64,000 bases of DNA from Chryseolinea sp. H1M3-3. GTDB taxonomy: Bacteria; Bacteroidota; Bacteroidia; Cytophagales; Cyclobacteriaceae. The notes under the pieces were generated by a model, which ran no database searches, was not told the DNA's origin, and saw nothing but the letters and a program-made list of their open reading frames with translations. Both the position numbers and the translations under genes were made by a program. The stretch is from assembly GCF_029360725.1 (NCBI RefSeq), contig NZ_JARKMY010000006.1, positions 1 through 64,000 on the forward strand. Reading direction: 5' to 3'. This document shows, piece by piece, positions 1 through 34,800 of this stretch (positions are counted from its first letter, which is position 1; each line of letters starts with the position of its first letter).

Positions 1-3000
1 GCTCACTACCGTCCAGGTACCTGTGCCTGTCGTTGCTGTATTGGCTGCAAGGGTAGCTGAAGTCGTACATAAAGTCTGGTCTGTGCCTGCATTGGCTGCT
101 GGGGAGGGAGCAGCATCAAAACGGATGGTTACCTGGTCGGAACTTGAGGCACATACCCCATTGCTGATCGTCCATTGTAATACATAAGTTGTGCCTGATA
201 CACCACTGAAAGTTGTAGCTTCATCGGTGGCATCTAAAAAGCTTCCTCCTGCTCCACTCACAATCGTCCACAACCCTGTGCCTATTACTGGAACATTACC
301 TGCTAATGTCGTTGAAGTGCTGCATAACGTCTGGTCTGCTCCTGCTGTAGCTATTGTGGGTGATTGATCAAATTGTATCTGCACAATATCGCTGCTCGGT
401 ACACATACACCACTACTGATCGTCCATTGTAAATCATAAGTCGTTCCTGCTACACCATTAAATACCGTCGTCGGATTGTTTGCATTCACAAAGCTTCCGC
501 CTGCACCACTCACTACCGTCCAGGTACCTGTGCCTGTTGTTGCTGTATTGGCGGCAAGGGTTGCTGACGTTGTACATAAAGTCTGGTCTGCACCTGCATT
601 GGCTGCTGGGGAGGGAGCAGCATCAAAACGGATGGTTACCTGGTCCGAACTTGAGGCACATACCCCATTACTGATCGTCCATTGTAATACATAAGTTGTT
701 CCTGATACACCGCTGAAAGTTGTGGCCTCATCGGTAGCATCTAAAAAGCTTCCGCCTGCACCACTCACAATCGTCCACAACCCTGTGCCTATCACCGGAA
801 CATTACCTGCTAATGTCGTTGAAGTGCTGCATAACGTCTGGTCTGCTCCTGCTGTAGCTATTGTTGGTAATTGATCAAATTGTATCTGTACAATATCACT
901 GCTCGGTGCACATACACCACTACTGATCGTCCATTGTAAATCATAAGTGGTACCCGCTATTCCATTGAATACCGTCGTCGGACTGTTTGCATTCACAAAG
1001 CTTCCGCCTGCACCGCTCACTACCGTCCAGGTGCCTGTACCTGTCGTCGCTGTATTGGCTGCAAGGGTGGCTGACGTGGTACATAAAGTCTGGTCTGTAC
1101 CTGCATTGGCTGCTGGGGAGGGAGCAGCATCAAAACGGATGGTTACCTGGTCCGAACTTGAGGCACATACCCCATTGCTGATCGTCCATTGTAATACATA
1201 AGTTGTTCCTGATACACCGCTGAAAGTTGTAGCTTCATCGGTAGCATCTAAAAAGCTTCCGCCTGCACCACTCACAATCGTCCACAACCCTGTGCCTATC
1301 ACCGGAACATTACCTGCTAATGTCGTTGAAGTGCTGCATAACGTCTGGTCTGCTCCTGCTGTAGCTATTGTTGGTAATTGATCAAATTGTATCTGTACAA
1401 TATCACTGCTCGGTGCACATACACCATTACTGATCGTCCACTGTAAATCATAAGTCGTTCCTGCTACACCATTGAATACCGTCGTCGGACTGTTTGCATT
1501 CACAAAGCTTCCGCCTGCACCACTCACTACCGTCCAGGTACCTGTGCCTGTCGTCGCTGTATTGGCGGCAAGGGTAGCTGACGTCGTACATAAAGTCTGG
1601 TCTGTGCCTGCATTGGCTGCTGGCGAGGGAGCAGCATCAAAACGGATCGTTACCTGGTCCGAACTTGAGGCACATACCCCATTACTGATCGTCCATTGTA
1701 ATACATACGTTGTTCCTGATACACCACTGAAAGTTGTGGCCTCATCGGTAGCATCTAAAAAGCTTCCGCCTGCACCACTCACAATCGTCCACAACCCTGT
1801 GCCTATTACTGGAACATTACCAGCTAATGTTGTTGAAGTGCTGCATAAGGTCTGGTCTGGGCCTGCGGCAGCGATCGTAGGCGATTGATCAAATTGTATC
1901 TGTACAATATCACTGCTCGGTGCACATACACCACTACTGATCGTCCATTGTAAATCATAAGTCGTTCCTGCTACACCATTAAATACCGTCGTCGGACTGT
2001 TTGCATTCACAAAGCTTCCGCCTGCACCACTCACTACCGTCCAGGTACCTGTGCCTGTCGTCGCTGTATTGGCGGCAAGGATGGCTGAAGTCGTACATAA
2101 AGTCTGGTCTGTACCTGCATTGGCTGCTGGTGAGGGAGCAGCATCAAAACGGATCGTTACCTGGTCCGAACTTGAGGCACATACCCCATTGCTGATCGTC
2201 CATTGTAATACATACGTTGTTCCTGATACACCACTGAAAGTTGTAGCTTCATCGGTAGCATCTAAAAAGCTTCCTCCTGCCCCACTCACAATCGTCCACA
2301 ACCCTGTGCCTATTACTGGAACATTACCAGCTAATGTTGCAGACGTTAAACACAAGGTCTGGTCTGGGCCTGCTGTAGCTACCGTGGGTGATTGATCAAA
2401 TTGTATCTGCACAATATCACTGCTCGGTGCACATACACCACTACTGATCGTCCATTGTAAATCATAAGTCGTTCCTGATACACCATTGAATACCGTCGTC
2501 GGACTGTTTGCATTCACAAAGCTTCCGCCTGCACCACTCACTACCGTCCAGGTACCTGTGCCTGTCGTCGCTGTATTGGCGGCAAGGGTGGCTGACGTCG
2601 TACATAAAGTCTGGTCTGTACCTGCATTGGCTGCTGGCGAGGGAGCAGCATCAAAACGGATGGTTACCTGGTCCGAACTTGAGACACATACCCCATTGCT
2701 GATCGTCCATTGTAATACATAAGTTGTTCCTGATACACCGCTGAAAGTTGTAGCTTCATCGGTAGCATCTAAAAAGCTTCCTCCTGCTCCACTCACAATC
2801 GTCCACAACCCTGTGCCTATTACTGGAACATTACCTGCTAACGTCGTTGAAGTGCTGCATAACGTCTGGTCTGCTCCTGCTGTAGCTATTGTTGGTAATT
2901 GATCAAATTGTATCTGTACAATATCACTGCTCGGTGCACATACACCACTACTGATCGTCCATTGTAAATCATAAGTGGTACCCGCTATTCCATTGAATAC

Positions 3001-4930
3001 CGTCGTCGGACTGTTTGCATTCACAAAGCTTCCGCCTGCACCGCTCACTACCGTCCAGGTACCTGTGCCTATTACTGGAGCATTACCAGCTAGGGTGACT
3101 GAAGTCGTACATAAAGTCTGGTCTGCACCTGCATTGGCTGCTGGCGAGGGAGCAGCATCAAAATGGATCGTTACCTGGTCCAAACTTGAGGCACATACCC
3201 CATTGCTGATCGTCCATTGTAATACATAAGTTGTGCCTGATACGCCGCTGAAAGTTGTAGCCTCATCGGTTGCATCTAAAAAGCTTCCGCCTGCCCCACT
3301 CACAATCGTCCACAACCCTGTGCCTATTACTGGAACATTACCTGCTAATGTCGTTGAAGTGCTGCATAAAGTCTGGTCTGGGCCTGCTGTAGCTATTGTT
3401 GGTGACTGATCAAATTGTATCTGTACAATATCACTGCTCGGTGCACATACACCACTACTGATCGTCCATTGTAAATCATAAGTCGTTCCTGCTACACCAT
3501 TAAATACCGTCGTCGGACTGTTTGCATTCACAAAGCTTCCTCCTGCACCACTCACTACCGTCCAGATGCCTGTGCCTATTACTGGAGCATTACCTGCTAA
3601 TGTTGCAGACGTTAAACACAAGGTCTGGTCTGTGCCTGCATTGGCTGCTGGTGAGGGAGCAGCATCAAAACGGAGGGTTACCTGGTCCGAACTTGAGGCA
3701 CATACCCCATTGCTGATCGTCCATTGTAATACATAAGTTGTGCCTGATACGCCGCTGAAAGTTGTAGCTTCATCGGTAGCATCTAAAAAGCTTCCCCCTG
3801 CCCCACTCACAATCGTCCACAACCCTGTGCCTATCACCGGAACATTACCTGCTAATGTCGTTGAAGTGCTGCATAAAGTCTGGTCTGGGCCTGCTGTAGC
3901 TATTGTTGGTGATTGATCAAATTGTATCTGCACATTATCACTGCTCGGTGCACATACACCACTGCTGATCGTCCATTGTAAATCATAAGTGGTACCTGCT
4001 ACCCCATTGAATACCGTCGTTGGACTGTTTGCATTCACAAAGCTTCCTCCTGCACCACTCACTACCGTCCAGGTACCTGTGCCTGTCGTCGCTGTATTGG
4101 CGGCAAGGGTGGCTGACGTGGTACATAAAGTCTGGTCTGTACCTGCATTGGCTGCTGGTGAGGGAGCAGCATCAAAACGGATGGTTACCTGGTCTGAACT
4201 TGAGGCACATACCCCATTACTGATCGTCCATTGTAATACATAAGTTGTTCCTGATACACCACTGAAAGTTGTAGCTTCATCGGTAGCATCTAAAAAGCTT
4301 CCTCCTGCCCCACTCACAATCGTCCACAACCCTGTGCCTATCACTGGAACATTACCAGCTAAAGTTGCAGACGTTAAACATAACGTCTGGTCGGGGCCTG
4401 CTGTAGCTAATGTGGGTGATTGATCAAATTGTATCTGCACATTATCACTGCTCGGTGCACATACACCACTACTGATCGTCCATTGTAAATCATAAGTGGT
4501 TCCTGCTACCCCATTGAAGACCGTCGTCGGACTGTTTGCATTCACAAAGCTTCCGCCTGCACCACTCACTACCGTCCAGATGCCTGTACCTGTCGTCGCT
4601 GTATTGGCGGCAAGGGTGGCTGAAGTTGTACATAAAGTCTGGTCTGCACCTGCATTGGCTGCTGGTGAGGGGGCAGCATCAAAACGGATGGTTACCTGGT
4701 CCGAACTTGAGGCACATACCCCATTGCTGATCGTCCATTGTAATACATAAGTTGTGCCTGATACACCACTGAAAGTTGTAGCCTCATCGGTAGCATCTAA
4801 AAAGCTTCCTCCCGCTCCACTCACAATCGTCCACAACCCTGCGCCTATTACTGGAACATTACCTGCTAATGTCGTTGAAGTGCTGCATAACGTCTGGTCG
4901 GGGCCTGCTGTAGCTAATGTGGGTGATTGA
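1..4930 (-). repeat. Tandem 507-bp higher-order repeat inside the giant surface gene
   Basis: About 9.7 head-to-tail copies of a 507-bp unit (169 codons). A landmark, the GAGGGAGCAGC segment, recurs near 96, 603, 1110, 1617, 2124, 2631, 3138, 3645, 4152 and 4659. Each unit encodes two related domains. Type A contains LAANTATTGTG and GGSFVNANSP; type B contains LAGNVPVIGTG and GSFLDATDE. Copies differ at scattered positions only. The B unit nearest the start of the gene, about 4770-4930, is the array edge. Confidence 0.93.
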
Positions 4931-6066
4931 TCCACTGTGACAGCGACAACATCTGTTAAATCAACTTCACAAAGTGTGGTTGCATGGCGTGCATATACTT
5001 TTATCGTGACATTAGCCGAAACAGGATCAGAATTAATAATGAGATTTGCGCCGGTACCAAGAAAAAATCCACTTAAAGGAGCATCTGTAGCATTATCTTG
5101 CAACTGATAAAGAACACCAGCTTCAGCAGTATTAATCGTGACAGGAACACTACTGCCCGAACAAACCGCCGGCGTGGCTGGCGATACTGTTAACGCTGCA
5201 GATGGAAGGGCGTTAATCGTTACAGTTTGAATGTCCAAACATGTGGGCACAAAAGAAACGAAATCATTCATTGCGTCCCACTGTGCATCATTGCGAGAAG
5301 CGATTCCATAAAAAGTTGTGATTCCGGAGCCTAGATCGTGACTCTCAATGCCCTGCGTTGCGGTCACTGTATTTGTCGCAAAAAGCGCATCCAACGTATG
5401 TATTTCAATAATATTGGTGGTCTCGTGAAGCTGCGCTTGTGCCGTGATCGTGAAAGCGCCAGCCCGATCTACAGCTATATAATCCACCACAAATTTGCGA
5501 AAAGGTGCGCTACCGGTAATAAAGTAACTTACTGCACCACCGAGGTCCGGGGTTAAATCATCCCAAGCCACAGCAATGATATTATTTGGATTGACCGCAT
5601 CGCCTAATGCCTGATTATCGTCGAGAGACGTTACTGTCGGAGCACCCCCAAGACCTAGTACACCATTACTGCCAATTCGCAGCTGCGTATAATCCGTACC
5701 AAAAAAATTAAATGTAAAACCTATGTTGACGAGTTGTTCAGAATTATCACCTAAAATCACGGAAGTAGGAGCAACCGGAGACTCAGGATTGTAAACTCCA
5801 GTTACCACAGCATAAGAAGTGGGATTGCCATCCGTTGTAACTAATTGATGTGTTCCAACTCCTGCACCAGCAGGATCAAATGTACTTCCTGTTACACCCG
5901 GACCATAATAATTTGTTCCACCGGTTAACGCGAAACTAGGTTCGTTGATGCAATAAGCAGCACCGAGATTGGTAAAATTACACTGAGCGTTTATAGCCGC
6001 ATTGTTGAGTAAAATACCCAGAAAGGATAGCAAAAAAATAAGCCCTGTCTTGTAAAATCTCAACAT
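1..6066 (-). CDS. Giant secreted tandem-repeat surface protein (N-terminal 2022 codons; C-terminus beyond the window)
   Basis: The frame is open from ATG at 6066 to the left edge, so the gene is partial. Residues 1-28 form a signal peptide (basic start, long hydrophobic core, ending INAQ). Residues about 29-300 are a non-repeated head, with a GPGVTGSTFDPAGAG segment of the kind seen in Bacteroidetes adhesins and then a beta-rich stretch (GFTFNFFGTDY, IGSNGVLGLGG). A short Ig-like segment follows. From about residue 380 the rest is a tandem array of Ig/PKD-like domains of about 84-85 residues, each with the core AGxDQTLC...LAxN...GTGxW...LQWTIS.GVC...SSD. The two Cys of each unit may form a disulphide. 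It is probably exported by type IX secretion, but the sorting domain would lie off the window, so that is inference. It lies 80 bp behind the lipoprotein gene and is probably its operon partner. Confidence 0.88.
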   Translation of the reverse strand, partial: MLRFYKTGLIFLLSFLGILLNNAAINAQCNFTNLGAAYCINEPSFALTGGTNYYGPGVTGSTFDPAGAGVGTHQLVTTDGNPTSYAVVTGVYNPESPVAPTSVILGDNSEQLVNIGFTFNFFGTDYTQLRIGSNGVLGLGGAPTVTSLDDNQALGDAVNPNNIIAVAWDDLTPDLGGAVSYFITGSAPFRKFVVDYIAVDRAGAFTITAQAQLHETTNIIEIHTLDALFATNTVTATQGIESHDLGSGITTFYGIASRNDAQWDAMNDFVSFVPTCLDIQTVTINALPSAALTVSPATPAVCSGSSVPVTINTAEAGVLYQLQDNATDAPLSGFFLGTGANLIINSDPVSANVTIKVYARHATTLCEVDLTDVVAVTVDQSPTLATAGPDQTLCSTSTTLAGNVPVIGAGLWTIVSGAGGSFLDATDEATTFSGVSGTTYVLQWTISNGVCASSSDQVTIRFDAAPSPAANAGADQTLCTTSATLAANTATTGTGIWTVVSGAGGSFVNANSPTTVFNGVAGTTYDLQWTISSGVCAPSSDNVQIQFDQSPTLATAGPDQTLCLTSATLAGNVPVIGTGLWTIVSGAGGSFLDATDEATTFSGVSGTTYVLQWTISNGVCASSSDQVTIRFDAAPSPAANAGTDQTLCTTSATLAANTATTGTGTWTVVSGAGGSFVNANSPTTVFNGVAGTTYDLQWTISSGVCAPSSDNVQIQFDQSPTIATAGPDQTLCSTSTTLAGNVPVIGTGLWTIVSGAGGSFLDATDEATTFSGVSGTTYVLQWTISNGVCASSSDQVTLRFDAAPSPAANAGTDQTLCLTSATLAGNAPVIGTGIWTVVSGAGGSFVNANSPTTVFNGVAGTTYDLQWTISSGVCAPSSDIVQIQFDQSPTIATAGPDQTLCSTSTTLAGNVPVIGTGLWTIVSGAGGSFLDATDEATTFSGVSGTTYVLQWTISNGVCASSLDQVTIHFDAAPSPAANAGADQTLCTTSVTLAGNAPVIGTGTWTVVSGAGGSFVNANSPTTVFNGIAGTTYDLQWTISSGVCAPSSDIVQIQFDQLPTIATAGADQTLCSTSTTLAGNVPVIGTGLWTIVSGAGGSFLDATDEATTFSGVSGTTYVLQWTISNGVCVSSSDQVTIRFDAAPSPAANAGTDQTLCTTSATLAANTATTGTGTWTVVSGAGGSFVNANSPTTVFNGVSGTTYDLQWTISSGVCAPSSDIVQIQFDQSPTVATAGPDQTLCLTSATLAGNVPVIGTGLWTIVSGAGGSFLDATDEATTFSGVSGTTYVLQWTISNGVCASSSDQVTIRFDAAPSPAANAGTDQTLCTTSAILAANTATTGTGTWTVVSGAGGSFVNANSPTTVFNGVAGTTYDLQWTISSGVCAPSSDIVQIQFDQSPTIAAAGPDQTLCSTSTTLAGNVPVIGTGLWTIVSGAGGSFLDATDEATTFSGVSGTTYVLQWTISNGVCASSSDQVTIRFDAAPSPAANAGTDQTLCTTSATLAANTATTGTGTWTVVSGAGGSFVNANSPTTVFNGVAGTTYDLQWTISNGVCAPSSDIVQIQFDQLPTIATAGADQTLCSTSTTLAGNVPVIGTGLWTIVSGAGGSFLDATDEATTFSGVSGTTYVLQWTISNGVCASSSDQVTIRFDAAPSPAANAGTDQTLCTTSATLAANTATTGTGTWTVVSGAGGSFVNANSPTTVFNGIAGTTYDLQWTISSGVCAPSSDIVQIQFDQLPTIATAGADQTLCSTSTTLAGNVPVIGTGLWTIVSGAGGSFLDATDEATTFSGVSGTTYVLQWTISNGVCASSSDQVTIRFDAAPSPAANAGADQTLCTTSATLAANTATTGTGTWTVVSGAGGSFVNANNPTTVFNGVAGTTYDLQWTISSGVCVPSSDIVQIQFDQSPTIATAGADQTLCSTSTTLAGNVPVIGTGLWTIVSGAGGSFLDATDEATTFSGVSGTTYVLQWTISNGVCASSSDQVTIRFDAAPSPAANAGTDQTLCTTSATLAANTATTGTGTWTVVS

Positions 6067-6146
6067 CCAGAGAAGGGATAATTTGAACGGATAAACTTAA
6101 TTTTTAAAGGCGTAGGAAAGTAGCCGCAAACCGCTTCGGCATTACA

Positions 6147-7394
6147 TCAGTCAGAAAATCGCCCATTCGCATTAGTCATCATGAATGCCATCTTTTTTTG
6201 GGTCTCCAATTGAATGGTTCCCAATAAAGCAATACGCCCATCAGGGAGCGCTTCTACGCCTCCGGCGGTATCATCGCCCTCTAATGACCCAAAACTTGTT
6301 GTCCAGCTAACGGCCCCGTCGCGTTCCACTCGAAGTAAAAAAATATCCTTTTTGTTGTTATCTCTTACCTCATTTGCCACAATGAAATACCCATCTGGTG
6401 ATGCATTTGCCCCTGCAATACCTTCAATTCTTTTACCAAGTGGAATTTTCTGATCAAATGTTCGCGTTGCAACATCGGGGTTCTGAGGTTTGCCGAATCT
6501 GGTCAAATACAAATCACTGGATCCGCTAGACGTCGAGGTTCCAATCATGAGATAGCCATCGCCTAATGTTTGCGGGATTTTTAAAGTGGAAGAAGCTACT
6601 TGCTCCTCGTTAATTTGATTATTAGAAAATTCATGCAACCCGGTTGGTACGCCGTTTATGTTCGAGGCGATTAATTGAAAGCAAAGCTTATAATCGACTG
6701 ACCCTTTCCGTGGCTTGTCCGAATAACCAAAAACCATGTAATAAATAGCATCATTCAGGCTGATTTCAAACGCTTTTGTCCCTGACCCGAGATGCTCACC
6801 ACCGCCTGGCGACAAATCACTGACAAGGTCCAGCGTATTATTGATTTTAAGAAGAAGAATGTCGGCTTGATCCGGGGGCGGTAAGTCCGGATTTCGTTCG
6901 GGATTAGGATCCTTATAACCAGTTATCAAGAAACCGTTGTCCGAAGATTCGCTTACCGCTTTAGCTACCTGATTCTTTGTATTGGTAATAAAAATGCTAT
7001 CAATTAAATTCCCGTCCTGTCCCAAAACATATAAACATGCATTTGTGGTAGCTCTTTCAACATTAGAGAGCACTGCTACTTGACTCCCACCATTTATCAG
7101 TTCAATATCAACAGCGGTTTCATTATCTGTTTTAAATTCACGCTGCCAAAGAACATTCCCCAATGCATCCGTTTTTACAATAAATGGAGACACGGGGTCG
7201 CTTTGCGAATAGGAATTTCCTAATAAAACAAAAGATCCGTCGTTGTTTCTTACAAGATCTACACCTTCTTGTTCACCGTCTTCGCCGTAATACTTAGTGA
7301 AATAGTTTTCGAAGATAGGCTCAACGTTGCTTGCGGTATCGCAAGACAGCATACAAATAATAAAAACGAGCGTGCTAAGACTGATCAGTCGCAT
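6147..7394 (-). CDS. Lipoprotein with predicted beta-propeller-like repeats
   Basis: The protein has 415 residues with a lipoprotein signal peptide; the lipobox is MLSC and the acylated residue is Cys18. The mature part shows repeated short strands of the type DGSFVLLGNS, DNGFLITGYKD, GDGYLMIGTST, DGYFIVANEV and DGRIALLGTI, spaced about 50-60 residues apart, as in delta-60 or PQQ-like propellers. No catalytic motif is visible. The start overlaps the end of the upstream barrel gene by 20 bp and the giant repeat gene follows after 80 bp. I infer a surface or periplasmic accessory of the giant protein; the individual function is unknown. Confidence 0.75.
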   Translation of the reverse strand: MRLISLSTLVFIICMLSCDTASNVEPIFENYFTKYYGEDGEQEGVDLVRNNDGSFVLLGNSYSQSDPVSPFIVKTDALGNVLWQREFKTDNETAVDIELINGGSQVAVLSNVERATTNACLYVLGQDGNLIDSIFITNTKNQVAKAVSESSDNGFLITGYKDPNPERNPDLPPPDQADILLLKINNTLDLVSDLSPGGGEHLGSGTKAFEISLNDAIYYMVFGYSDKPRKGSVDYKLCFQLIASNINGVPTGLHEFSNNQINEEQVASSTLKIPQTLGDGYLMIGTSTSSGSSDLYLTRFGKPQNPDVATRTFDQKIPLGKRIEGIAGANASPDGYFIVANEVRDNNKKDIFLLRVERDGAVSWTTSFGSLEGDDTAGGVEALPDGRIALLGTIQLETQKKMAFMMTNANGRFSD

Positions 7395-8517
7395 TACGTT
7401 GTCTGTTAATGAACCTGAATACTGATTTCGTCCTGGGTTTTTTCAATTTTCTGGGCTTGTAAAACGGGTGAACATATCCTATGGATATTGAAAGATTATC
7501 CAATCTGAAATCATCATCGACATATGGATACGGAAGACCCTCCGCATAATTGTTAAATCGATTTTCAGTATTCGCGATATTTTTGGTACCCAGCGCATAA
7601 CGTAGGTCCACAAAGAAAAAATCAAGCTTGTATTTATATTTAACTCCTCCACCAAAAAGAAATGATCCGTTTAATCTCCGACGATGTGAGTTCAAATTCA
7701 GATTTGGTGTTTCATTGTCTGCTGATGACAATTCTTCTCCAAGCCCGTTAGTGGAACTCATTCGGGAATCACGATTGAAAACGTTTAATATACCTTTATC
7801 TCTTAGCAGGAAATTGAGAGAGTACCCGACATAAGTATATGGTCGAATTTTTCCTTCATCATCGCCATATTTTACAGTTAGAGGCAAGGTTGCCCAAGTC
7901 TGTCTGTCTAAAAACTCAACAATATCTTTGTTGGGTCCAAAAAGATTGTTTGTTATGTGTTGGAACCCGGTAAAGACATAGCTAAAGCCGGCTGAAAAAG
8001 TAACGTTATTATTATAGTTATAATTTAACCCTGCCCCCATTTGCCATCCTAATCGGAGCTTGTATGATTGCTTAGTTTGCGATTCTCCACCGATAGTTAC
8101 ATCGTGAATAACGCGTATAGGGGATGTGTTAGGGCCGAGCATTGCATAGAATTCAAATATCGGTGTGGCGGTGAATTTTTTACTTAAATAAACAAGGTCG
8201 ATAGGGTCACGCTGCGGATCAGTTACATATTCTGGATTAGCGCGCAAAACTTCCAGATAACTATTTTCAGCACCAATAGGATCTTCTAATAGCAAGTAAG
8301 TTTCAGTCAAAAGCAGGTAAGCACGTTGTCGCCATTCATCATTCTGGTTTTTATTAAGGCAATCACTTAACATGGCAGGAATACCATACAAATGTCCAGC
8401 ATTAAATTCGTCGGTGGCCAGCGTAAGGGCTAATTCACATTCGGTCTGTGCCTGGATGTGACTAACCCCAAACAAAAACAACACCATCAATACTGAGCAT
8501 CTTATTTTTTTACACAT
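7375..8517 (-). CDS. Outer-membrane beta-barrel protein with N-terminal helical (TPR-like) domain
   Basis: I place the start at ATG 8517 (MCKKIRCS) and not at the in-frame GTG at 8547. The ATG gives a clean signal peptide ending HIQAQ, and the upstream stop TGA overlaps it as TGATG, which suggests translational coupling. Mature residues about 25-105 are helical and TPR-like (AYLLLTETYLLLEDPIGAEN). The rest alternates polar and aromatic residues as in an outer-membrane barrel (GWQMGAGLNYNYNNNVTFSA, VKYKYKLDFFFVDLRYALG) and ends near SIGYVHPFYKP. It resembles the generic Bacteroidetes outer membrane beta-barrel group. It sits between the membrane NTPase and the lipoprotein. Confidence 0.75.
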   Translation of the reverse strand: MCKKIRCSVLMVLFLFGVSHIQAQTECELALTLATDEFNAGHLYGIPAMLSDCLNKNQNDEWRQRAYLLLTETYLLLEDPIGAENSYLEVLRANPEYVTDPQRDPIDLVYLSKKFTATPIFEFYAMLGPNTSPIRVIHDVTIGGESQTKQSYKLRLGWQMGAGLNYNYNNNVTFSAGFSYVFTGFQHITNNLFGPNKDIVEFLDRQTWATLPLTVKYGDDEGKIRPYTYVGYSLNFLLRDKGILNVFNRDSRMSSTNGLGEELSSADNETPNLNLNSHRRRLNGSFLFGGGVKYKYKLDFFFVDLRYALGTKNIANTENRFNNYAEGLPYPYVDDDFRLDNLSISIGYVHPFYKPRKLKKPRTKSVFRFINRQRNATDQS

Positions 8518-11500
8518 CAGTAGTCTTTTATTAGGAGACGTACGCACGTATTCTCATATGGAGTTTCCTCACCGTAGCCAACATACTTTTTCCATTCCTC
8601 CTGTGTCATGTTTCGGTTCAACTTCGGGCAAATTTGTTCAGCCAACAATGAAGGGTTGGTGGGCCAAATCCTTATCTCAGACTCACTGCATGCGGCAATG
8701 AGATAATCAGATCCCTTGGCAAATTCGATATCCCAAATAAATCCACTGTTGTTATCCATGACTACAGGCAAATCTTCCGGCAAGTCCAGCACATAAAGCT
8801 GAAGCCGTTTATCCAATCCAGCGCTTGCAAGTAACTTTTCATCGGGACTAAATGCGACATCATTTACGCCAGCGCGATGGCCTGAGAATTGGCGGACCTC
8901 TCTGGTATTCAAATCATACAATTTAACGAGTCCCCTTTTATTGCTGATATCATCAACGCCATAAGCCAAATACTTGCCTGAAGGGCTGAACTTGACTGAC
9001 AAGATTCTGCTGGGTGATTCTTGTGCCAGTATAGAAATTGACTTGTTATCCAAGTTGTATAAAACAACTTGGCCTGACCATGCCGCACCTGCCAACCACC
9101 TTCCATCAGCGCTGATGGAAATGGATTTGAGTTCATAAGGCAGTGTTACGAGTGTTGTAACGTTGCCGGTATTTTGATTGACCAGCGATAACTTTTTGCT
9201 TCCACTTGAAACAATGAAACCGGAGTTGTCGGGCAAAAATTCAATATCATTTGTAGGACCATCAAAACCTCCTACAACCTTTGCCCTACCCCCATTCAAA
9301 ACACTATAAATTTGGACAAAGGAGGAATCGCTGCCATTGACTACGAAGGATTCATCCTTACTCAATGCAATAACTTTGGACGGATAGGGAGTAGCGTAAG
9401 TCGTCGCAGTATTCGTAAGCTTGGTCAGATCACCCTCGTAGATTCGTCCATCGGCGCCTGCAATATAGAAACCGCTTTTTGAAGAGACTGCCAGCGATCG
9501 CAAATGTGTCCTGGAGGGGCCATCAATTTTCATCGCATTGTAAGTGGTTCCATTAATTTTTTTCAGGGCCGCGTACAGACCGTTGTATATATATGGCTCG
9601 TATACTTTTCCCTCATACCTGCGGTTGTAAATAAATCCTTGCATTGCCATCAATCCCTTCAGGTCCTTATCGTCATCTTCCTGGACTGATTTGGTCGCCA
9701 GGTTTTGAGCAACCGCCAGCATATAGAGTTTGTTTGCAAGCCTGTAGTTTAACTGCGCTTCTTCAGATTTAAGTTCGGCAAGTTCTTTTGCCGCTCTCTC
9801 TTTTTCACCCGCCGCGATGGCCTTAGCTTCTTCTTCCTTCGCTTTTAAAAATGCTAACTCTGCCCTGTTCTTCTCGAACGTTAATTTTATGTATGCTTCT
9901 TTTAATTCATCGTTAGAAATCTGGAGTTGTTCTCTCGCATTCTCAGCTTCTATCGTCTTTCGTTCTGCCTCAAGTTTATTAGCCTCCGCTATTTTTGATT
10001 GAGCGATTGCTTCTTGCCTGCTTGATTCAGCAGCTAGCCGTTCTTGGTCGGCTTGAATTTTTTGAAGATATGCGAACACGAAAAATATAATCGCGACGAT
10101 AAAGGCTATTCCCAGAATAACGGCGGTTGCACGTGTACGTCTCAGTACACGCCGTTGCATCATCTCCTGATTTTTTAATTCCGCATCGTAGGTAATACGA
10201 CTCGTATCAAGGAATACAATGGCACGTTCAAACGCTTCATCATAACGCTGACCCCACTCACGGGTCGGTTTTTGTTTCTTTTGCCAGTTAAGTGCAAGCT
10301 GCAAATCCGGAGGCCGCCATAGGCCAGTCTTTCCGATCTGGTACATAGCGGCTGCTTCCGAAAGTCTTTTATACATGGAAGCAGATTCATACTCTTCATT
10401 GACCCATCCTTCTAACCTTGTCCATATGCGCATTAAGCTTTCATGCGAAAGCTCAATCATGGAATCACTGTGTAAAGGTATATTCGCCGCGGGCATCAGA
10501 AAGGAACGGCCTGGTCTTCTGAAATGATCGACCACACGAATTACGTCCTCTTCACTTGCCTCCGCCAATTCTGCGACCATACCCAAACGGCAGGGTCTTC
10601 TCATAAAACGATTCAGTTGGTTTCTCTCCGTGATATTCTTGAAAAGCACTTCGGCGATTTCTTTATCACGTGAGGCCAATTCTTCGTATGCTTCATTAGC
10701 GTGTTGGGCCAGTGCAGTACTGATTTTTCCAATGGCATTATAATGCCGGATATCCATCACCTCTCCGGGCTCGTGATTTGCTACCCAGTAATCCCAGGTA
10801 CGCATCAACGCATGTTGGAAAATGGGGAGTTGATCCTGGGTGTTCCCTATGTCATTTAATAAACGCTTGACAAGACGTTGTGAAATCTTCCCGCCTGCAA
10901 CCGCTACTGGCCCTTCAATAACGCTTCGTTTTTGCTCGCGCGTCATTTGTGGAACCAGGTAATTACTGTTGTTGATTTGTTCCGTCAGGCCCGCAAAGAT
11001 GGAGCATTCACCAATGAAATCAGATCTCATCGTAAGTGCCACATAGGTAGACACTTTATCCTGTTGTATGGCAGTCAATAACAAGTTTACATACAACTGT
11101 GCTTCGTTCAATGCTTCACTACTCTCAGCTAGCTCACGATAGCCGAAGATTTCTTCAAACTGATCAACCAGAAAAAAGGCATTTTCACTTTGACCACGTT
11201 GAAGATATTGTGAGACTTTTATTAACCCATCCGAACCACTCCGCAGAACGGAGTTAATGATCGCGCGTTGCATTTCAACACCGTCGGCATCCAGTCGATT
11301 TGTCTTCAGCATAAAATCCAGTACAGATTCCGTCAGATTGTTGATCGGTGATGTACCCGGACGCGTGGTGATTACATTCCAATAGGGCCCTGAGTTTGTA
11401 ACGAATCCCCCATACAGGATAGGGACTAATCCGCAAAACAACAACGATGACTTACCACTTCCGGAATACCCCATGATGGTGATAAATCGATTCTTAGAAA

Positions 11501-11669
11501 TCTTTAAAAGGATATCATCAATCTGATGTTCGCGACCAAAAAACAAATGCGTGTCATCGATGGAGAATGGCCTTAATCCCGGAAATGGGTTAGCATCAGA
11601 AAGCGGAACGTTTGAAAAAACGTCGGAATTAGATTGTGGATCGCCGCTATGAGAGGGCTGGTTTTGCAT
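8517..11669 (-). CDS. nSTAND1-type NTPase with one membrane helix, coiled coil and C-terminal WD40 domain
   Basis: The protein has 1050 residues. Residues 28-50 carry the nSTAND1 signature (NPFPGLRPF...FFGRE). Walker A is GYSGSGKSS at 67-75 and Walker B is FFLVDQFEEIF at 165-175; TMRSDF near 214 resembles a sensor arginine. A helical region runs to about 500. One transmembrane helix (about 514-536) follows the basic segment RRVLRRTR, so the NTPase should be cytoplasmic. A charged Ala/Glu/Lys coiled coil covers about 540-650. WD40-like repeats follow from about 715 to 1000 (e.g. FSPSGKYLAYGVDD, FSPDEKLLASAGLDKRLQLY). By the positive-inside rule the WD40 part would be periplasmic. It is the first gene of the set with the barrel protein, lipoprotein and giant protein. 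STAND proteins are signalling ATPases, but the signal here is unknown. Confidence 0.85.
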   Translation of the reverse strand: MQNQPSHSGDPQSNSDVFSNVPLSDANPFPGLRPFSIDDTHLFFGREHQIDDILLKISKNRFITIMGYSGSGKSSLLFCGLVPILYGGFVTNSGPYWNVITTRPGTSPINNLTESVLDFMLKTNRLDADGVEMQRAIINSVLRSGSDGLIKVSQYLQRGQSENAFFLVDQFEEIFGYRELAESSEALNEAQLYVNLLLTAIQQDKVSTYVALTMRSDFIGECSIFAGLTEQINNSNYLVPQMTREQKRSVIEGPVAVAGGKISQRLVKRLLNDIGNTQDQLPIFQHALMRTWDYWVANHEPGEVMDIRHYNAIGKISTALAQHANEAYEELASRDKEIAEVLFKNITERNQLNRFMRRPCRLGMVAELAEASEEDVIRVVDHFRRPGRSFLMPAANIPLHSDSMIELSHESLMRIWTRLEGWVNEEYESASMYKRLSEAAAMYQIGKTGLWRPPDLQLALNWQKKQKPTREWGQRYDEAFERAIVFLDTSRITYDAELKNQEMMQRRVLRRTRATAVILGIAFIVAIIFFVFAYLQKIQADQERLAAESSRQEAIAQSKIAEANKLEAERKTIEAENAREQLQISNDELKEAYIKLTFEKNRAELAFLKAKEEEAKAIAAGEKERAAKELAELKSEEAQLNYRLANKLYMLAVAQNLATKSVQEDDDKDLKGLMAMQGFIYNRRYEGKVYEPYIYNGLYAALKKINGTTYNAMKIDGPSRTHLRSLAVSSKSGFYIAGADGRIYEGDLTKLTNTATTYATPYPSKVIALSKDESFVVNGSDSSFVQIYSVLNGGRAKVVGGFDGPTNDIEFLPDNSGFIVSSGSKKLSLVNQNTGNVTTLVTLPYELKSISISADGRWLAGAAWSGQVVLYNLDNKSISILAQESPSRILSVKFSPSGKYLAYGVDDISNKRGLVKLYDLNTREVRQFSGHRAGVNDVAFSPDEKLLASAGLDKRLQLYVLDLPEDLPVVMDNNSGFIWDIEFAKGSDYLIAACSESEIRIWPTNPSLLAEQICPKLNRNMTQEEWKKYVGYGEETPYENTCVRLLIKDY

Positions 11670-11847: not shown

Positions 11848-12192
11848 TTATTTGATCTTATTCACGATGGCTTCAAAAGCCGACGGATGATTCATTGCCA
11901 AGTCGGCAAGAACTTTTCTATTCAGATCTACATCGGCTTTCTTCAATTTACCCATGAATTCGGAATAAGAGAGACCATGCAGGCGGGCACCCGCGTTAAT
12001 CCGGGCAATCCAAATGCCCCTAAATTCTCTTTTCTTTTGCTTTCTGTCGCGGTAGGCGTACACCAACCCCTTTTCAATAGCGTTTTTAGCTACGGTCCAT
12101 ACATTCTTTTTACGGCCGAAGAAACCTTTGGCCAACTTCAAGATGCGTTTTCTTTTTGCTCTTGAAGCTACGTTGTTTACTGATCTTGGCAT
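11848..12192 (-). CDS. rplT: 50S ribosomal protein L20
   Basis: The 114 residues begin [18 protein letters not shown], the characteristic basic L20 N-terminus, followed by the conserved core with [13 protein letters not shown] and [12 protein letters not shown]. It is an early 50S assembly protein. It is last in the order thrS-infC-rpmI-rplT, 78 bp behind rpmI, and is followed by a terminator. In many bacteria L20 represses this operon through leader RNA; no such leader can be shown here. Confidence 0.97.
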
Positions 12193-29412: not shown

Positions 29413-31881
29413 ATGCGGCTCCTCGTACGTACATTACTAATAGTTTCTCTATCCAACGGACTTAACACAGTTGCATTCAGTCAATTATTTAATTTAAATG
29501 CCCCTACAATTACCGGCCAACGTCCTACCCCACTCATCACCGAAAAGAACACTGCGATAACAATAGCTTTTCAAAATCTTAGAGTATCCGACCCAGATAT
29601 TTTTGTACCCGCATACCCTCAGGGATTTACACTAAAGATATTTGAGGGAAGTAATTACACGCTGGTAGATGCAACTGTAACCCCGAATGCCAATTTCGTC
29701 GGAACATTAACGGTACAGGTACAAGTAAATGATGGAAAATTCGATAGTAATATTTTCGATTTAAAAATTGATGTAATAAACATTAAACCTGAAATAACCG
29801 ACCAGGAATCAATCAGCATCAAAGAAGGATCCTCTGTTACGCTACAGCTTTCTCATCTTAAAGTGAAAGATGATGATAACATTTTTCCTGACGATTTTAC
29901 TTTAACCGTTTCGGATGGGAATAACTATAGTATCAACGGAAATACAATTATTCCTGACCCAAACTTTACTGGCGATCTGAAAGTTCTGGTCAGTGTGAAC
30001 GATGGTCATGAAGAGAGCGATAAGTTTGAAGTTAAAATTCAGGTTAAGCCAAACATCATTCCCGTAATCAAAGGGCAGGTGCTGCTTTCCGTTAATCAAG
30101 GAAAAAAAATCACAATTGAATTAGGCCACTTGACGGTTGAGGACGCTGATAACGCATACCCTACTGGCTTTACACTTAAAATTTACGAAGGAACCAATTA
30201 TGCTGTTAACGGGAATACAATCACACCAATCATAAGCTTTACAGGTACCCTTAAAGTCCCAGTAACGGTTCATGATGGTCAGGATGAAAGCAAAAAATTT
30301 GAATTAAAGATTGAAGTTTTACCTAAAAATAATATTGCCCCAAAAATAAACGGACAAGATGCGCTTGTTACCAATGAAGACCAAAGCATAACAATAACAC
30401 TGGCTGATTTAATCGTCTCGGATCCCGACAATACTTATCCTACCGACTTTATCTTAAAAATACCGCAAGGAGCCGGCGCCTCTTACTCCGTTTCGGGGGC
30501 TAAAATAACACCTGCCGTAAATTTTAACGGAGTTATAACTGTGCCAGCCAGAGTCAACGACGGGCTTGATGATAGTGAGCCATTTCAGTTATCCATTACT
30601 ATTACCCCTGTAAATGACGTGCCTGTTATAACGGGACAAAATCCGATTTTCGTACCGGCGAACAGGACAACTTCTCTGGACATCTCCCGGTTAAGCGTAA
30701 GCGATCCCGACAAGCAGGACGTATCGGCCTTTCCGGTAAAAATCCTGCCGGGAACAAATTATACGGCTTCAGGAAATTCAATCACTCCCGCAAACGGATT
30801 TACAGGTACATTAACGGTAAGGGTAGTGGTTAACGACGGGGTGGTCGACAGCGCGCCTTTTAACCTCAAGGTCGAGGTAGTTCCACCGGGCTCTAAACCC
30901 CTTATCACCGGCCAGCAACCGCTGGTTGTTGATGAAGACAAAAGCATAACAATAAAGTTGGGAGATCTTTTTGTTACCGATGAAGATGATCACTACCCTG
31001 ATGGATTTACCATGAAAGTGCTCCCTGGCGGGCCAGATAGCGAGTATAATTTCGACGGTCTTATCGTTACACCTCCGCAAGATATGAATGGTCTACTGGT
31101 TGTGAATGTTACAGTTCACGATGGAAATGAAGACAGCCCGGTATTTCCTTTGAAGATTTATGTTATTCCAGTGAACGATGCTCCACGAATAACGAATCTC
31201 GAGTCAACACTCATACCGTATGAGCCCGGCGTCAACCCTACCCCTATCACCGAAGCACTTGAAGCCGAAGACATCGATAACGAGTTTTTGAGTTTCGCTG
31301 AGATCGGATTAATTGACACTACTTTTAATGTGTTGCATGACGAATTACTTTTTGAAAATACGGATGAAATAAGAGGCATTTTCGATTCTTCCCGAGGAAT
31401 TTTATCGCTGATTGGATATGCGTCGTTAAGTAAATTTGACTCGGCTATCAGATCGGTAAAATACAATTACAAACTAACTCGTGATGATCAAGGCAATCAG
31501 TCAGAAGTTCTACCTGGTCAGAAAAAGATCTATTTTTCATTAAGTGACGGCCAACTTGCAAGTGAAAAAGCTATCCGAACGCTCACGATTGAAAGTTCCG
31601 TCGACCTTGATATTCCAAACACATTTACGCCTAATGGCGATAAGGCCCACGACACTTGGAAGGTAAGGCCAGTGGTCAGCACGCAACAATTCGATAAGGC
31701 CATCGTCAAAGTTTATAATAAAAAAGGCTTGCTGGTTTTTGAAACCAAGGGCTTCGATTCCAGTTGGGATGGTTCTTTCAACGGTGAGGTAATGCCAGTT
31801 GACACCTACTATTACACAATTGATTTAAAACTCTCCTATACAAAAAAAACGTATAAGGGTACCGTTACCATCTTAAGGTAA
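29413..31881 (+). CDS. Secreted cadherin-like repeat protein with gliding-type (CHU_C) C-terminal sorting domain, paralogue 1
   Basis: 822 residues with a signal peptide (about 1-23, ending AFSQ). Six repeats of about 90-95 residues each start near ITGQ or a variant (IKGQ, INGQ) and contain the cadherin-like core LxVxDxDNxYPxGFTLKI and VxVNDGxxxSxxFxLKI. Residues about 590-730 form a distinct module beginning YEPGVNPTPITEALEAEDID. The last about 90 residues (LDIPNTFTPNGDKAHDTW through TYKGTVTILR) are the CHU_C domain that directs type IX secretion. The protein is expected on the cell surface or secreted. Asp/Asn-rich repeat edges suggest Ca2+ binding. Close paralogue of the next gene. Confidence 0.9.
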   Translation: MRLLVRTLLIVSLSNGLNTVAFSQLFNLNAPTITGQRPTPLITEKNTAITIAFQNLRVSDPDIFVPAYPQGFTLKIFEGSNYTLVDATVTPNANFVGTLTVQVQVNDGKFDSNIFDLKIDVINIKPEITDQESISIKEGSSVTLQLSHLKVKDDDNIFPDDFTLTVSDGNNYSINGNTIIPDPNFTGDLKVLVSVNDGHEESDKFEVKIQVKPNIIPVIKGQVLLSVNQGKKITIELGHLTVEDADNAYPTGFTLKIYEGTNYAVNGNTITPIISFTGTLKVPVTVHDGQDESKKFELKIEVLPKNNIAPKINGQDALVTNEDQSITITLADLIVSDPDNTYPTDFILKIPQGAGASYSVSGAKITPAVNFNGVITVPARVNDGLDDSEPFQLSITITPVNDVPVITGQNPIFVPANRTTSLDISRLSVSDPDKQDVSAFPVKILPGTNYTASGNSITPANGFTGTLTVRVVVNDGVVDSAPFNLKVEVVPPGSKPLITGQQPLVVDEDKSITIKLGDLFVTDEDDHYPDGFTMKVLPGGPDSEYNFDGLIVTPPQDMNGLLVVNVTVHDGNEDSPVFPLKIYVIPVNDAPRITNLESTLIPYEPGVNPTPITEALEAEDIDNEFLSFAEIGLIDTTFNVLHDELLFENTDEIRGIFDSSRGILSLIGYASLSKFDSAIRSVKYNYKLTRDDQGNQSEVLPGQKKIYFSLSDGQLASEKAIRTLTIESSVDLDIPNTFTPNGDKAHDTWKVRPVVSTQQFDKAIVKVYNKKGLLVFETKGFDSSWDGSFNGEVMPVDTYYYTIDLKLSYTKKTYKGTVTILR

Positions 31882-32049: not shown

Positions 32050-34800
32050 ATGAGACCTTTTTTCAATCGGGCAGTGCTCCTATTTCTATTTTTATTTTTT
32101 TCAATAAATTCATTTAGTCAATTCAATTTATTCCGACCCGAAATTATTGGCCAAACGCCGTCACCACTTACAACGAATACAAACGAGCCCATCACAATTC
32201 AACTCAGCAATCTTATTGTATTGGATGGCGATGCTCTTCCGGTATACCCAAATGGTTTTACACTAGAGGTCTCTGAGGGTAAGAACTACAAACTCGATGA
32301 CGCCACAGTAACTCCAGATGATAATTTTAGCGGCAGGCTAAAGGTTCCAGTCCGCGTAAATGATGGCCGTTTCAACAGCAAGCGATTTGAGGTAGAAATT
32401 GAAGTTGCCGGAAACAGCAACGCAAGGCCTGAGATAACAGGACAGATTCCCCTGGTAATCAATCAAGAGCAAACCCTAACGGTAGCGTTGACGCATTTGC
32501 AGGTTAATGATCCAGATAATCTATATCCGGACGATTTTACGCTCCATGTATTTGACGGAAACAACTATTCATTAGATGGAACCACAGTAAAACCACGAGC
32601 GGGTTTCACAGGCAATCTAAAGGTTCCTGTATCTGTTAACGATGGCATGATCGAAAGCAGACGTTATGATTTAACTGTCGAAGTCACAAAAGTGCAAAAT
32701 ACTGCCCCGGTAATTACGGGCCAAGCGCCGGTGAACACTGTCCGGGCAACTCCTGTAGAGATTACATTGAGCCACCTTACTGTAACAGATCCTGACAATG
32801 AGTATCCCGATGATTTTTCACTCAAAGTCTCACCTGGAAATAATTATACTGTGAATGGAACTACCATCACACCATTGAATGACTTCGTTGGTGAATTAAC
32901 AGTGAAAGTAAAAGTAAATGATAGTCACAGCGATAGTGAGGCATTCGATCTGAAAGTTCAAGTTAATGATGACTACAAACCGCCGATAATTACAGGGCAA
33001 ACTGAACTAAATGTAAATGAGGACGAACCTATTGCTTTACAACTTTCTTATCTTACTGTGACCGGCGGGGCCAACACCTATCCCAACGGATTCTCCTTAA
33101 TAGTCTCACAAGGATCTAACTATACGTATACCGGAACCACAATTACCCCTAAGCAAAATTTTTCAGGCGCCCTTTCGGTTAATGTAAAGGTAGATGACGG
33201 CAAAAGTGAAAGTGCTCCATTCAAACTGGCTATAGCTGTTAAAGCGCTTAACGACGCTCCGGTTATTACGGGGCAAGTACCCCTGAGCACTAATAAAGGC
33301 ACACCATTGCTTATTGATCTTTCGCATTTAAAGGTTAGTGATGTAGATAATACTTATCCTGATGGCTTTACGCTTAAAATATCCAAGGGCGATAACTATT
33401 CGGTAATTGAAAATAATGTTCATCCTGCACCGGATTTCGTAGGGATACTGACAGTTAGCGTGAGCGTAAACGATGGATTTGCAGAGAGTGACAATTACCA
33501 GCTGAAAATTAATGTCGCCCCCGTTGTCGAAAATAAACCGCCTGTTATCACTGGACAGAAAACAATTAGCATCGTTCAAAATTCTGCGTTGGCTATACAT
33601 TTATCGCACCTTATCGTAAGTGATCCCGACAATAAATATCCGACGGGATTCACGCTAAAGGTTCTACCCGGCGATAACTACAGCGTTGAGGGAACTACCA
33701 TCAGGCCATTGCCCACTTTTAGAAACAATACGCTATCTGTTGGTGTAATCGTAAATGACGGGACTGATGATAGTCCCCCTTATGATTTAAAAATACAGGT
33801 AGTTCCATCCAGTTCAACTCCTATAATAAATGGCCAGAAAGAGCTTGTTATTCAAGAAGACAGCTCCATCGTAATTTTACTTTCTCATTTAGAAGTGACA
33901 GACGCCGACAACCCTGCTTATCCCAAAGGTTTTTCACTTATTCTATTACCGGCCAACAACGATATGTATACTGTTTCAGGCAGTACCATTAAACCCGCTT
34001 CAAATCTTAATGGGTTTATCGAAGTTGGCGTTAAAGTGAGTGATGGTGTAAATACCAGCAATGAGTTCAAGGTTTCAATCTTGGTGACGCCTGTTAATGA
34101 TCCGCCTGAGATTCTGAATTTCACAAACACTGAACTTGCTTATGAACCCGGCAGTGAACCGATTGCTGTTTTTGATGCGTTAGATTTAACCGATGTTGAC
34201 AATGATCATCTTAGCATGGCTGAAATTGGATTTAAGAAGGATAACTATAGCGCAATAAATGATGAACTTCTTCTCACAAGTGATTCAGCAAAAATTAAAG
34301 CCATTTACGACCCAGCAGGAATTCTATTCCTGGTAGGATATGCAACATTGGATGAATACAAGACCGCTATCCGCTCGATCCATTATAATTATAAGATGAC
34401 GCTGGATGAAAATGGTAATCCATCGGAAATCCTGGCAGGGACCCGCACGATCTATATTAATCTTCATGACGGACAACAGGTGAGCGATACGCACGAACTT
34501 AAAGTAAACATGGAAACGGAGGTGTCGCTGGATATCCCAAATACGTTCACGCCCAACGGTGACATGTCAAACGATACCTGGCATATTCACACCATCAATA
34601 AAGATCAATTAGATAAAGCAGTAATTCGTGTTTACAACAAACGGGGCCTGTTGCTATATGAATCCATTGGTTTGGAAAACGACTGGAATGGCATCGTCAA
34701 CGGCCAGCAATTGCCCGTCGATACTTACTACTATACCATCGATCTCAATCTTTCCTACATGAAGAAAACCTATAAGGGAGCAGTAACAATTTTAAGGTAG
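32050..34800 (+). CDS. Secreted cadherin-like repeat protein with CHU_C sorting domain, paralogue 2
   Basis: 916 residues; signal peptide ending NSFSQ, then the same FNLFRPEIIGQTP entry as its neighbour. Seven ITGQ-type repeats of about 95 residues are present, one more than in paralogue 1. Residues about 685-825 are the shared pre-terminal module (YEPGSEPIAVFDALDLTDVD, AEIGFKKDNYSAINDELLL). The C-terminal CHU_C domain starts LDIPNTFTPNGDMSNDTW and ends TYKGAVTILR. Its separate leader and the terminator upstream suggest an independent transcript. Probably an adhesin or matrix protein exported by type IX secretion; no enzyme motif was seen. Confidence 0.9.
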   Translation: MRPFFNRAVLLFLFLFFSINSFSQFNLFRPEIIGQTPSPLTTNTNEPITIQLSNLIVLDGDALPVYPNGFTLEVSEGKNYKLDDATVTPDDNFSGRLKVPVRVNDGRFNSKRFEVEIEVAGNSNARPEITGQIPLVINQEQTLTVALTHLQVNDPDNLYPDDFTLHVFDGNNYSLDGTTVKPRAGFTGNLKVPVSVNDGMIESRRYDLTVEVTKVQNTAPVITGQAPVNTVRATPVEITLSHLTVTDPDNEYPDDFSLKVSPGNNYTVNGTTITPLNDFVGELTVKVKVNDSHSDSEAFDLKVQVNDDYKPPIITGQTELNVNEDEPIALQLSYLTVTGGANTYPNGFSLIVSQGSNYTYTGTTITPKQNFSGALSVNVKVDDGKSESAPFKLAIAVKALNDAPVITGQVPLSTNKGTPLLIDLSHLKVSDVDNTYPDGFTLKISKGDNYSVIENNVHPAPDFVGILTVSVSVNDGFAESDNYQLKINVAPVVENKPPVITGQKTISIVQNSALAIHLSHLIVSDPDNKYPTGFTLKVLPGDNYSVEGTTIRPLPTFRNNTLSVGVIVNDGTDDSPPYDLKIQVVPSSSTPIINGQKELVIQEDSSIVILLSHLEVTDADNPAYPKGFSLILLPANNDMYTVSGSTIKPASNLNGFIEVGVKVSDGVNTSNEFKVSILVTPVNDPPEILNFTNTELAYEPGSEPIAVFDALDLTDVDNDHLSMAEIGFKKDNYSAINDELLLTSDSAKIKAIYDPAGILFLVGYATLDEYKTAIRSIHYNYKMTLDENGNPSEILAGTRTIYINLHDGQQVSDTHELKVNMETEVSLDIPNTFTPNGDMSNDTWHIHTINKDQLDKAVIRVYNKRGLLLYESIGLENDWNGIVNGQQLPVDTYYYTIDLNLSYMKKTYKGAVTILR

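Follow-up and report, generated by a model that had tools for sequence, protein, structure and literature searches.

What do four tightly packed genes do whose predicted products are spread over the whole cell envelope? The window, a stretch of 64,000 nucleotides of Chryseolinea sp. H1M3-3, begins with such a set: the genes for an nSTAND1 NTPase (N), an outer-membrane protein (B), a lipoprotein (L) and a giant protein (G). So far, STAND NTPases have mainly been known as sensors in the cytoplasm. The question is whether the set forms one trans-envelope system, and in which direction such a system would act. Two further genes enter the answer: M, encoding a nucleotide-carrier-like/HEAT/cNMP-binding protein, and T, encoding a TIR/DUF4062-like protein.

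The packing of the four genes on the minus strand was re-read from the sequence and is real. N (8517..11669, minus strand, 1050 aa) comprises the nSTAND1 NTPase, one transmembrane (TM) helix, a heptad coiled coil and a WD40 propeller. It is followed by B (7375..8517, minus strand), with a signal peptide recognized by eye, a periplasmic tetratricopeptide (TPR) module and an OmpA-type barrel, then by L (6147..7394, minus strand, 415 aa), a lipoprotein with one β-propeller, and by the 5′ part of G (1..6066, minus strand, 2022 aa), a giant secreted repeat protein. The open reading frame (ORF) list starts B at a GTG at 8547; an in-frame ATG at 8517 is also present and yields a TGATG overlap with the stop of N. 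L and B overlap by 20 bp and G begins 80 bp beyond L. The ORF coordinates thus bear out the spacing in the preliminary description, which had listed four minus-strand genes with overlaps. G is open at the window edge. As the first base of the window is also base 1 of contig C16 (genome of 6.88 Mb in 19 contigs), G is cut by an assembly break and not by biology. Between 5900 and 12300, both promoter-like sites (14 versus 13.5 expected) and terminator-like sites (9 versus 5.4 expected) were uninformative, and the TANNTTTG motif is not enriched (55 observed versus 64.7 in shuffles).

Judged by its profile match, N is a genuine nSTAND1 protein: residues 28-444 (10338..11588, minus strand) match PF20703 with 301 bits (cut-off 27.1, E 2e-89). 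The WD40 domain is likewise confirmed by Pfam. In an alignment of 32 sequences, with homologues 33-71% identical to the window protein, K73-S74 and the DQFEE box at 169-173 (D169-E173) are invariant (32/32); we take these to be the Walker A and B motifs. The predicted TM helix spans residues 515-535 (10065..10127, minus strand), its basic side being cytoplasmic. All 32 homologues carry an excess of Lys and Arg on the N-terminal side of the helix, and the mean net charge falls from +5.4 before it to 0.0 after it. By the positive-inside rule, the WD40 propeller and C-terminal tail (residues 700-1042; 8544..9572, minus strand) are therefore predicted to face the periplasm. A periplasmic WD40 domain had been proposed earlier from the basic segment and the single helix, and the uniform charge bias upholds this as a prediction. 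Cys1014 and Cys1042 in the outer half are present in 32/32 sequences, which is suggestive; cysteine parity in the same half is even in 17/32 and lends no support.

Between the helix and the propeller lies a coiled coil (residues 540-645; 9735..10052, minus strand) with alanine at one heptad position. The alanine fraction is 0.65-1.00 at the best phase versus 0.02-0.22 elsewhere. The distance from the first to the last alanine column takes only the values 85, 92, 106, 113 and 120, all of the form 7k+1, so that coil lengths differ among the homologues solely by multiples of 7 (32/32). A slightly wider segment measures 111 residues in 15 sequences, 118 in 13, 97 in 2, 90 in 1 and 125 in 1. With the helix rise taken as 0.15 nm per residue, the coil would be ~13-18 nm long as a single helix.

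The gene order is retained in relatives. Among 34 complete N loci (N profile at least 600 bits, mechanical gene calls), B stands at +1 of N in 31. At two of the three misses B is present, found by a B search (L081) or behind a split N (L079), and we regard both as artefacts of gene caller or frame; the third (L080) is a variant with a TPR-bearing receptor, described below. With the misses explained, N has behind it in 34/34 an outer-membrane protein that includes a small TPR domain. L occupies +2 in 29 of the 31 loci with B, a long or cut same-strand ORF lies behind it at +3 in 25/29, and T is found at -1 of N in 21 of the 34. A scan of named genomes, restricted to the best 80 of 575 loci (71 with complete N), gave B in 57/69, L in 53/57 and G in 46/48 of the loci with complete N, and T at -1 in 44/71. 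In 12 loci of this set B is missing from +1, and these loci are divergent. In six of them a gene of 851-887 aa with the TPR module takes its place, with Pfam receptor domains in L172 and L176 only; three (L168, L180, L190) have M-N without B, two (L189, L191) consist of T-N only, and at L181 a cut M-like ORF occupies +1. L191 (8488-13939) comes from a cyanobacterium (Nostocales HT-58-2), where a T-like gene precedes an nSTAND1 protein with ~15 WD40 repeats; no M, B or L match was found near this pair.

Whole-genome searches of 39 genomes, that of the window included, detected N in 29 genomes (E 1e-30) and B and L in 26 each (E 1e-5 and E 1e-3, respectively), many of the L hits being weak propeller matches elsewhere. 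The B search returned 47 match rows, 37 of which include the TPR end, and 36 of these 37 abut N. The exception (G023:C155, L206) is a B-L-G set on a 10.1-kb contig in which no N was detected and whose G carries a type A signal. Nine of the remaining rows are barrel-only and away from N, and one is the second piece of a split match. At the scale of the phylum N is rare (14/296 genomes at 1e-100), and a single order supplies most of the counts given here. Pairs of ~1350-aa nSTAND1-like proteins in three genomes (L091, L092 and L093 in G009, G021 and G026) belong to a different branch; those in G009 and G021 adjoin TIR-like genes. The preliminary description had claimed a single trans-envelope system of co-occurring, ordered genes. 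The linkage in relatives supports this, and when other genomes were inspected for a lack of co-occurrence, the linkage exceeded chance and the claim stands.

The architecture of B suggests what may connect it to N. The TPR module (8182..8445, minus strand) comprises five helices, which fall within residues 25-111 as numbered in the alignment row (first residue at codon 2), and the remainder (7459..8163, minus strand) is modelled as a small, eight-stranded OmpA-type barrel. Matches to OMP_b-brl_2 occur in 28/33 B members, the window protein itself lying under Pfam's curated barrel cut-offs. An assignment as PorP/SprF was rejected, as no such model matched in the 33 members. A role as export pore was also set aside: the modelled eight-strand barrel looks too small, making a pore unlikely.

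In four loci the barrel is exchanged. A TonB-dependent receptor follows N in L172, L176 and L080, identified by Pfam, and on a Runella rosea plasmid, identified by its PLSDB annotation. The first ~110 residues of the receptor correspond to the TPR module of B, with an hhalign E of 1.8e-20 between the modules; for L172, L176 and L080, the only Pfam domains are Plug and receptor barrel, and the N-terminus is the TPR module. Four N proteins of the receptor variant were examined; they keep the helix and the alanine phase (0.83-1.00), those of L208 and L080 being near-identical. Neither an L match nor a giant repeat ORF was found after N in L172, L176 and L080. Behind the receptor, L080 and Runella have a GNAT gene and the other loci a different small gene; an M-like gene comes next and, in 3/4 of these loci, the gene of a histidine kinase. 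In L172 and L080, where Pfam was run, this kinase has two-component propeller repeats. In Runella rosea, where N is annotated as 'hypothetical protein', it is preceded by a STAS gene, an anti-sigma factor antagonist and an ATP-binding protein, the last presumably of RsbW type.

Since the TPR module stays with N while the barrel changes, the module is probably the docking partner of N, and its constancy across the swap is the best available evidence for such docking. The presence of a receptor together with linked regulators favours outside-in signalling. A TPR-module HMM matched 108 of 1626 ORFs in the collected loci, 106 of them with N just upstream; as most loci had been fetched around N, this count does not constitute independent evidence. 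Against plasmids, B gave nothing at 1e-5, and N gave five records at 1e-60, none spanning 80%.

The two remaining products point to the cell surface. L is, by its sequence features, a lipid-anchored β-propeller, with the lipobox Cys18 present in 30/30. The repeats of G are ~84-85 aa each and usually hold two Cys, as read by eye. The 3′ end of a relative's G matches near the start of contig C11, where an ORF of 2570 aa, open from the first bases of the contig, belongs to the same repeat family as the window's G. The longest placements of C11 repeats on the window's G are 92-95% identical, and the pieces on C16 and C11 were treated separately. The C11 part ends in a type A sorting domain of the type IX secretion system (T9SS; TIGR04183, 33.5 bits, cut-off 23). 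The same model scores above cut-off in 20/21 complete +3 ORFs (23 candidates less two running into masked stretches), L077 being the exception. These matches identify G as type IX secretion cargo of type A, and the T9SS should therefore export it. SprA is found in 228/296 genomes of the phylum, so commonly that it adds little about T9SS dependence at this scale. All seven genomes with matches reaching the WD40 part of N have SprA; the five N-positive genomes without it come from one family, and their matches extend up to position 570 only. Elsewhere in the window, three Ig/cadherin-repeat proteins (29413-31881, 32050-34800 and 36672-41657, plus strand) bear T9SS signals of type B (CHU_C), whereas that of G is of type A.

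In many relatives the locus is wider, with M and T ahead of N; both genes are outside the window. T (~490 aa) matches DUF4062 over the Pfam cut-off, flanked, in one protein or another, by TIR_2 matches below cut-off. M (~1060 aa) has HEAT and cNMP-binding matches, and its profile matches ADP,ATP carriers (E 5e-18) and cNMP-binding domains among structures. In one locus (L102), M and T are separated by the gene of a HAMP-SpoIIE phosphatase, and another (L104) has a gene of the same cluster. At 49853-50941 (plus strand), the window also encodes a fusion of a response regulator with a cNMP-binding domain and a Crp-type HTH.

Across 241 genomes of the order, N was found in 70, M in 57 (E 1e-100) and T in 46 (E 1e-60), with three candidates scored per genome for N and M and up to six for T. 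Neither M nor T was detected at these cut-offs in the 171 N-negative genomes. Co-occurrence with N is strong by Fisher's test (M 4e-43, T 5e-32), kinship being ignored apart from a genus tally, in which M is present in 33/38 and T in 24/38 N-positive genera versus 0/66 of the others (4e-22 and 4e-14). At the cut-offs used, 24 of the 70 N-positive genomes are without T and 13 without M; the two genes are either not universal or too divergent there. Some of the counts without M can be cut-off artefacts, as an M-like gene lies three genes behind N in G034. Within the set of 39, N occurs without T in G015 and G034. One genome without N (G010; L201 8874-12128) carries M in two adjacent frames, possibly a decaying remnant.

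In the genome of the window, T lies on contig C10 and M on C7, neither adjoining the N locus. M on C7 has 211-aa and 171-aa neighbours, matched by eye on their first residues, like those beside M-N-B-L-G in other genera. The N-B-L-G set therefore appears to have been relocated in this genus, behind a 114-aa gene at 11848-12192 that we take to be rplT. The T site on C10 is that of a second locus: its flanking genes share 81% (775 aa) and 88% (251 aa) identity with the genes around M-T-N-B-L-G in G002. T is the sole system gene left at this site in G000, G004 and G005 (one flank gene is missing in G005), and G023 also has a solitary T. Where the N copy has no T beside it, nine of its proteins fall into one group (support 100/99), and two other T-less N proteins, from G015 and a further copy in G023, lie apart from it. 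All 11 genomes with the copy of this group carry one full-length T elsewhere; in G004 the contig ends inside N, so that the preceding gene is out of view. The solitary T proteins cluster with second-locus T with moderate support (86/94), and T of G000, G004 and G005 groups with that of G001 and G002 (100/99). Solitary T is under purifying selection (pN/pS 0.24-0.32, at saturated dS). Most simply read, the window copy of N uses T in trans.

A function of T as NADase effector is not supported, and the evidence leans against it. Among 19 T proteins, no Glu column reaches 90% conservation. In a weak alignment of the first of the TIR domains with SNC1 (E 0.21), which covers that domain only, 6/7 rows read by eye have another residue at the catalytic Glu, and L071 keeps it.

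Taken together, we judge it rather probable that N-B-L-G, M and T constitute one trans-envelope signalling system that acts outside-in through the STAND NTPase. Computed support comes from gene linkage, domain make-up, the T9SS signal, the shared TPR module and the retention of T and M in trans; the topology, docking, signal direction and output are inferred as follows. N would sit in the inner membrane with its NTPase in the cytoplasm, and the long alanine-heptad coil would carry the WD40 propeller toward the outer membrane, where it may dock onto the periplasmic TPR domain of B. The barrel of B, the propeller of L and the T9SS-exported G would make up a part on the outer surface by which contact or a ligand is sensed. 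Binding would shift B, then the WD40 domain, the coil and the STAND switch. The switched NTPase might then assemble T as a TIR-like adaptor and act on M and, in some loci, on partner-switching regulators. Points against this reading include the window locus without adjoining M and T, the N-positive genomes in which M or T was not detected, the M of G010 and the B-L-G set of G023:C155 without N, and the ability of TonB-dependent receptors to work inside-out as well.

With doubt slightly outweighing belief, we further propose a new receptor class. It would consist of an NLR-like STAND NTPase whose periplasmic sensor propeller is held on a coil of measured length and which uses exchangeable outer-membrane receptors (an OmpA-type barrel or a TonB-dependent receptor) via a common TPR plug; inward, the signal would be carried by a multi-TIR scaffold without catalytic activity, which paralogous receptors share in trans. 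A conserved system with its sensor half in the periplasm, coupled to outer-membrane receptors and a T9SS surface protein, would be a new route for surface information inward in diderm bacteria, and unnamed operons of Cytophagales and Bacteroidales would gain a shared meaning. Through the receptor swap and the heptad-stepped coil, the docking model is open to direct tests.

The direction of action could be the reverse, with N using ATP, via B and L, to act on the export, anchoring or display of G as a giant adhesin. G is the last gene and would be the cargo, L and B lie beside it in most loci, and the Walker-type boxes of N are intact. Such inside-out control is nevertheless unlikely, since B is modelled as an eight-stranded barrel and hence an improbable pore, G has a T9SS signal of its own, as do nearly all complete +3 ORFs, and the receptor variants have neither L nor a giant repeat ORF after N. 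The preliminary description had favoured energised control or display of G. This part of it is now less supported in view of the small modelled barrel and the type A signal, while the receptor variant and the linked regulators shift the balance to signalling.

STAND domains are typical of immunity, as are TIR/DUF4062 domains, and T, the neighbour of N, matches DUF4062 over cut-off. The system could be an NLR-like, trans-envelope alarm that, on sensing a phage or rival at the cell surface, kills the cell by the NADase activity of TIR; according to one study, DUF4062 NADases defend in the Swarozyc system (PMC13174449). We consider such a defence role quite improbable, given the lack of a Glu column with at least 90% conservation in T, the catalytic position substituted in 6/7 rows of its first TIR under the weak SNC1 alignment, and the conserved chromosomal sites of the loci in the genus examined. 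With one representative each, no PADLOC model was found for T, B, L or PP2C, and N and M gave only partial NTPase, WD40 or cNMP-domain matches; known PADLOC antiphage systems do not fit. A purely structural tether, in which the coil and B merely hold both membranes together at sites of G, would account for the heptad-stepped coil length and the OmpA-type barrel. It would need neither the invariant NTPase motifs nor the co-occurring TIR-like and M partners, and we regard it as very improbable. Outside-in signalling thus remains our preferred reading.

How does this signalling system compare with known ones? FecA-FecR is an example of TonB-dependent cell-surface signalling, in which an outer-membrane receptor contacts an inner-membrane protein that passes the signal inside. 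Signalling of this kind is the topic of two papers (PMC11637429, PMC7186176). An outer receptor would likewise address an inner partner here, and one variant of the N locus uses a TonB-dependent receptor. In place of an anti-sigma factor, however, the inner partner here is a STAND NTPase whose WD40 domain is predicted to be periplasmic, and the extra receptor domain is a TPR module, with an OmpA-type barrel in the window. Pfam models for FecR-type anti-sigma and ECF sigma factors matched none of N, B, L and part of G in the window, nor the M and T representatives. A TonB-dependent receptor with an N-terminal signalling domain was not encountered; B of the window is OmpA-type, and the N-terminus of the variants is TPR. 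By analogy, the system may work like TonB-dependent cell-surface signalling without the defining features of that family.

Two other families share parts of the architecture. SprB-SprF type T9SS adhesin loci place a giant T9SS repeat protein beside an outer-membrane barrel gene, as G lies near B, but G has a type A instead of a type B signal and B matches no PorP/SprF model. TEP1 pairs DUF4062 with an NTPase and WD40 repeats. T shares the DUF4062/TIR-like module with TEP1 and with Swarozyc, as far as passages on the latter describe it (PMC13174449), whereas no conserved Glu is apparent in T and the N system is envelope-bound.

Passages of the nSTAND1 literature, in which nSTAND1 is named among bacterial STAND/NLR-like NTPases (PMC8195603), mention no such envelope system, and the N-B-L-G system is undescribed in the open-licence literature searched, where no paper joins 'STAND NTPase' and 'T9SS'. 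N resembles STAND/NLR-like NTPases in its nSTAND1 core, its C-terminal superstructure repeats and its TIR-like partner. It differs from them in a sensor half predicted to lie across the membrane, in the periplasm, and in its fixed outer-membrane, lipoprotein and T9SS partners. The N-B-L-G set looks like an undescribed link of the cell surface to the interior.
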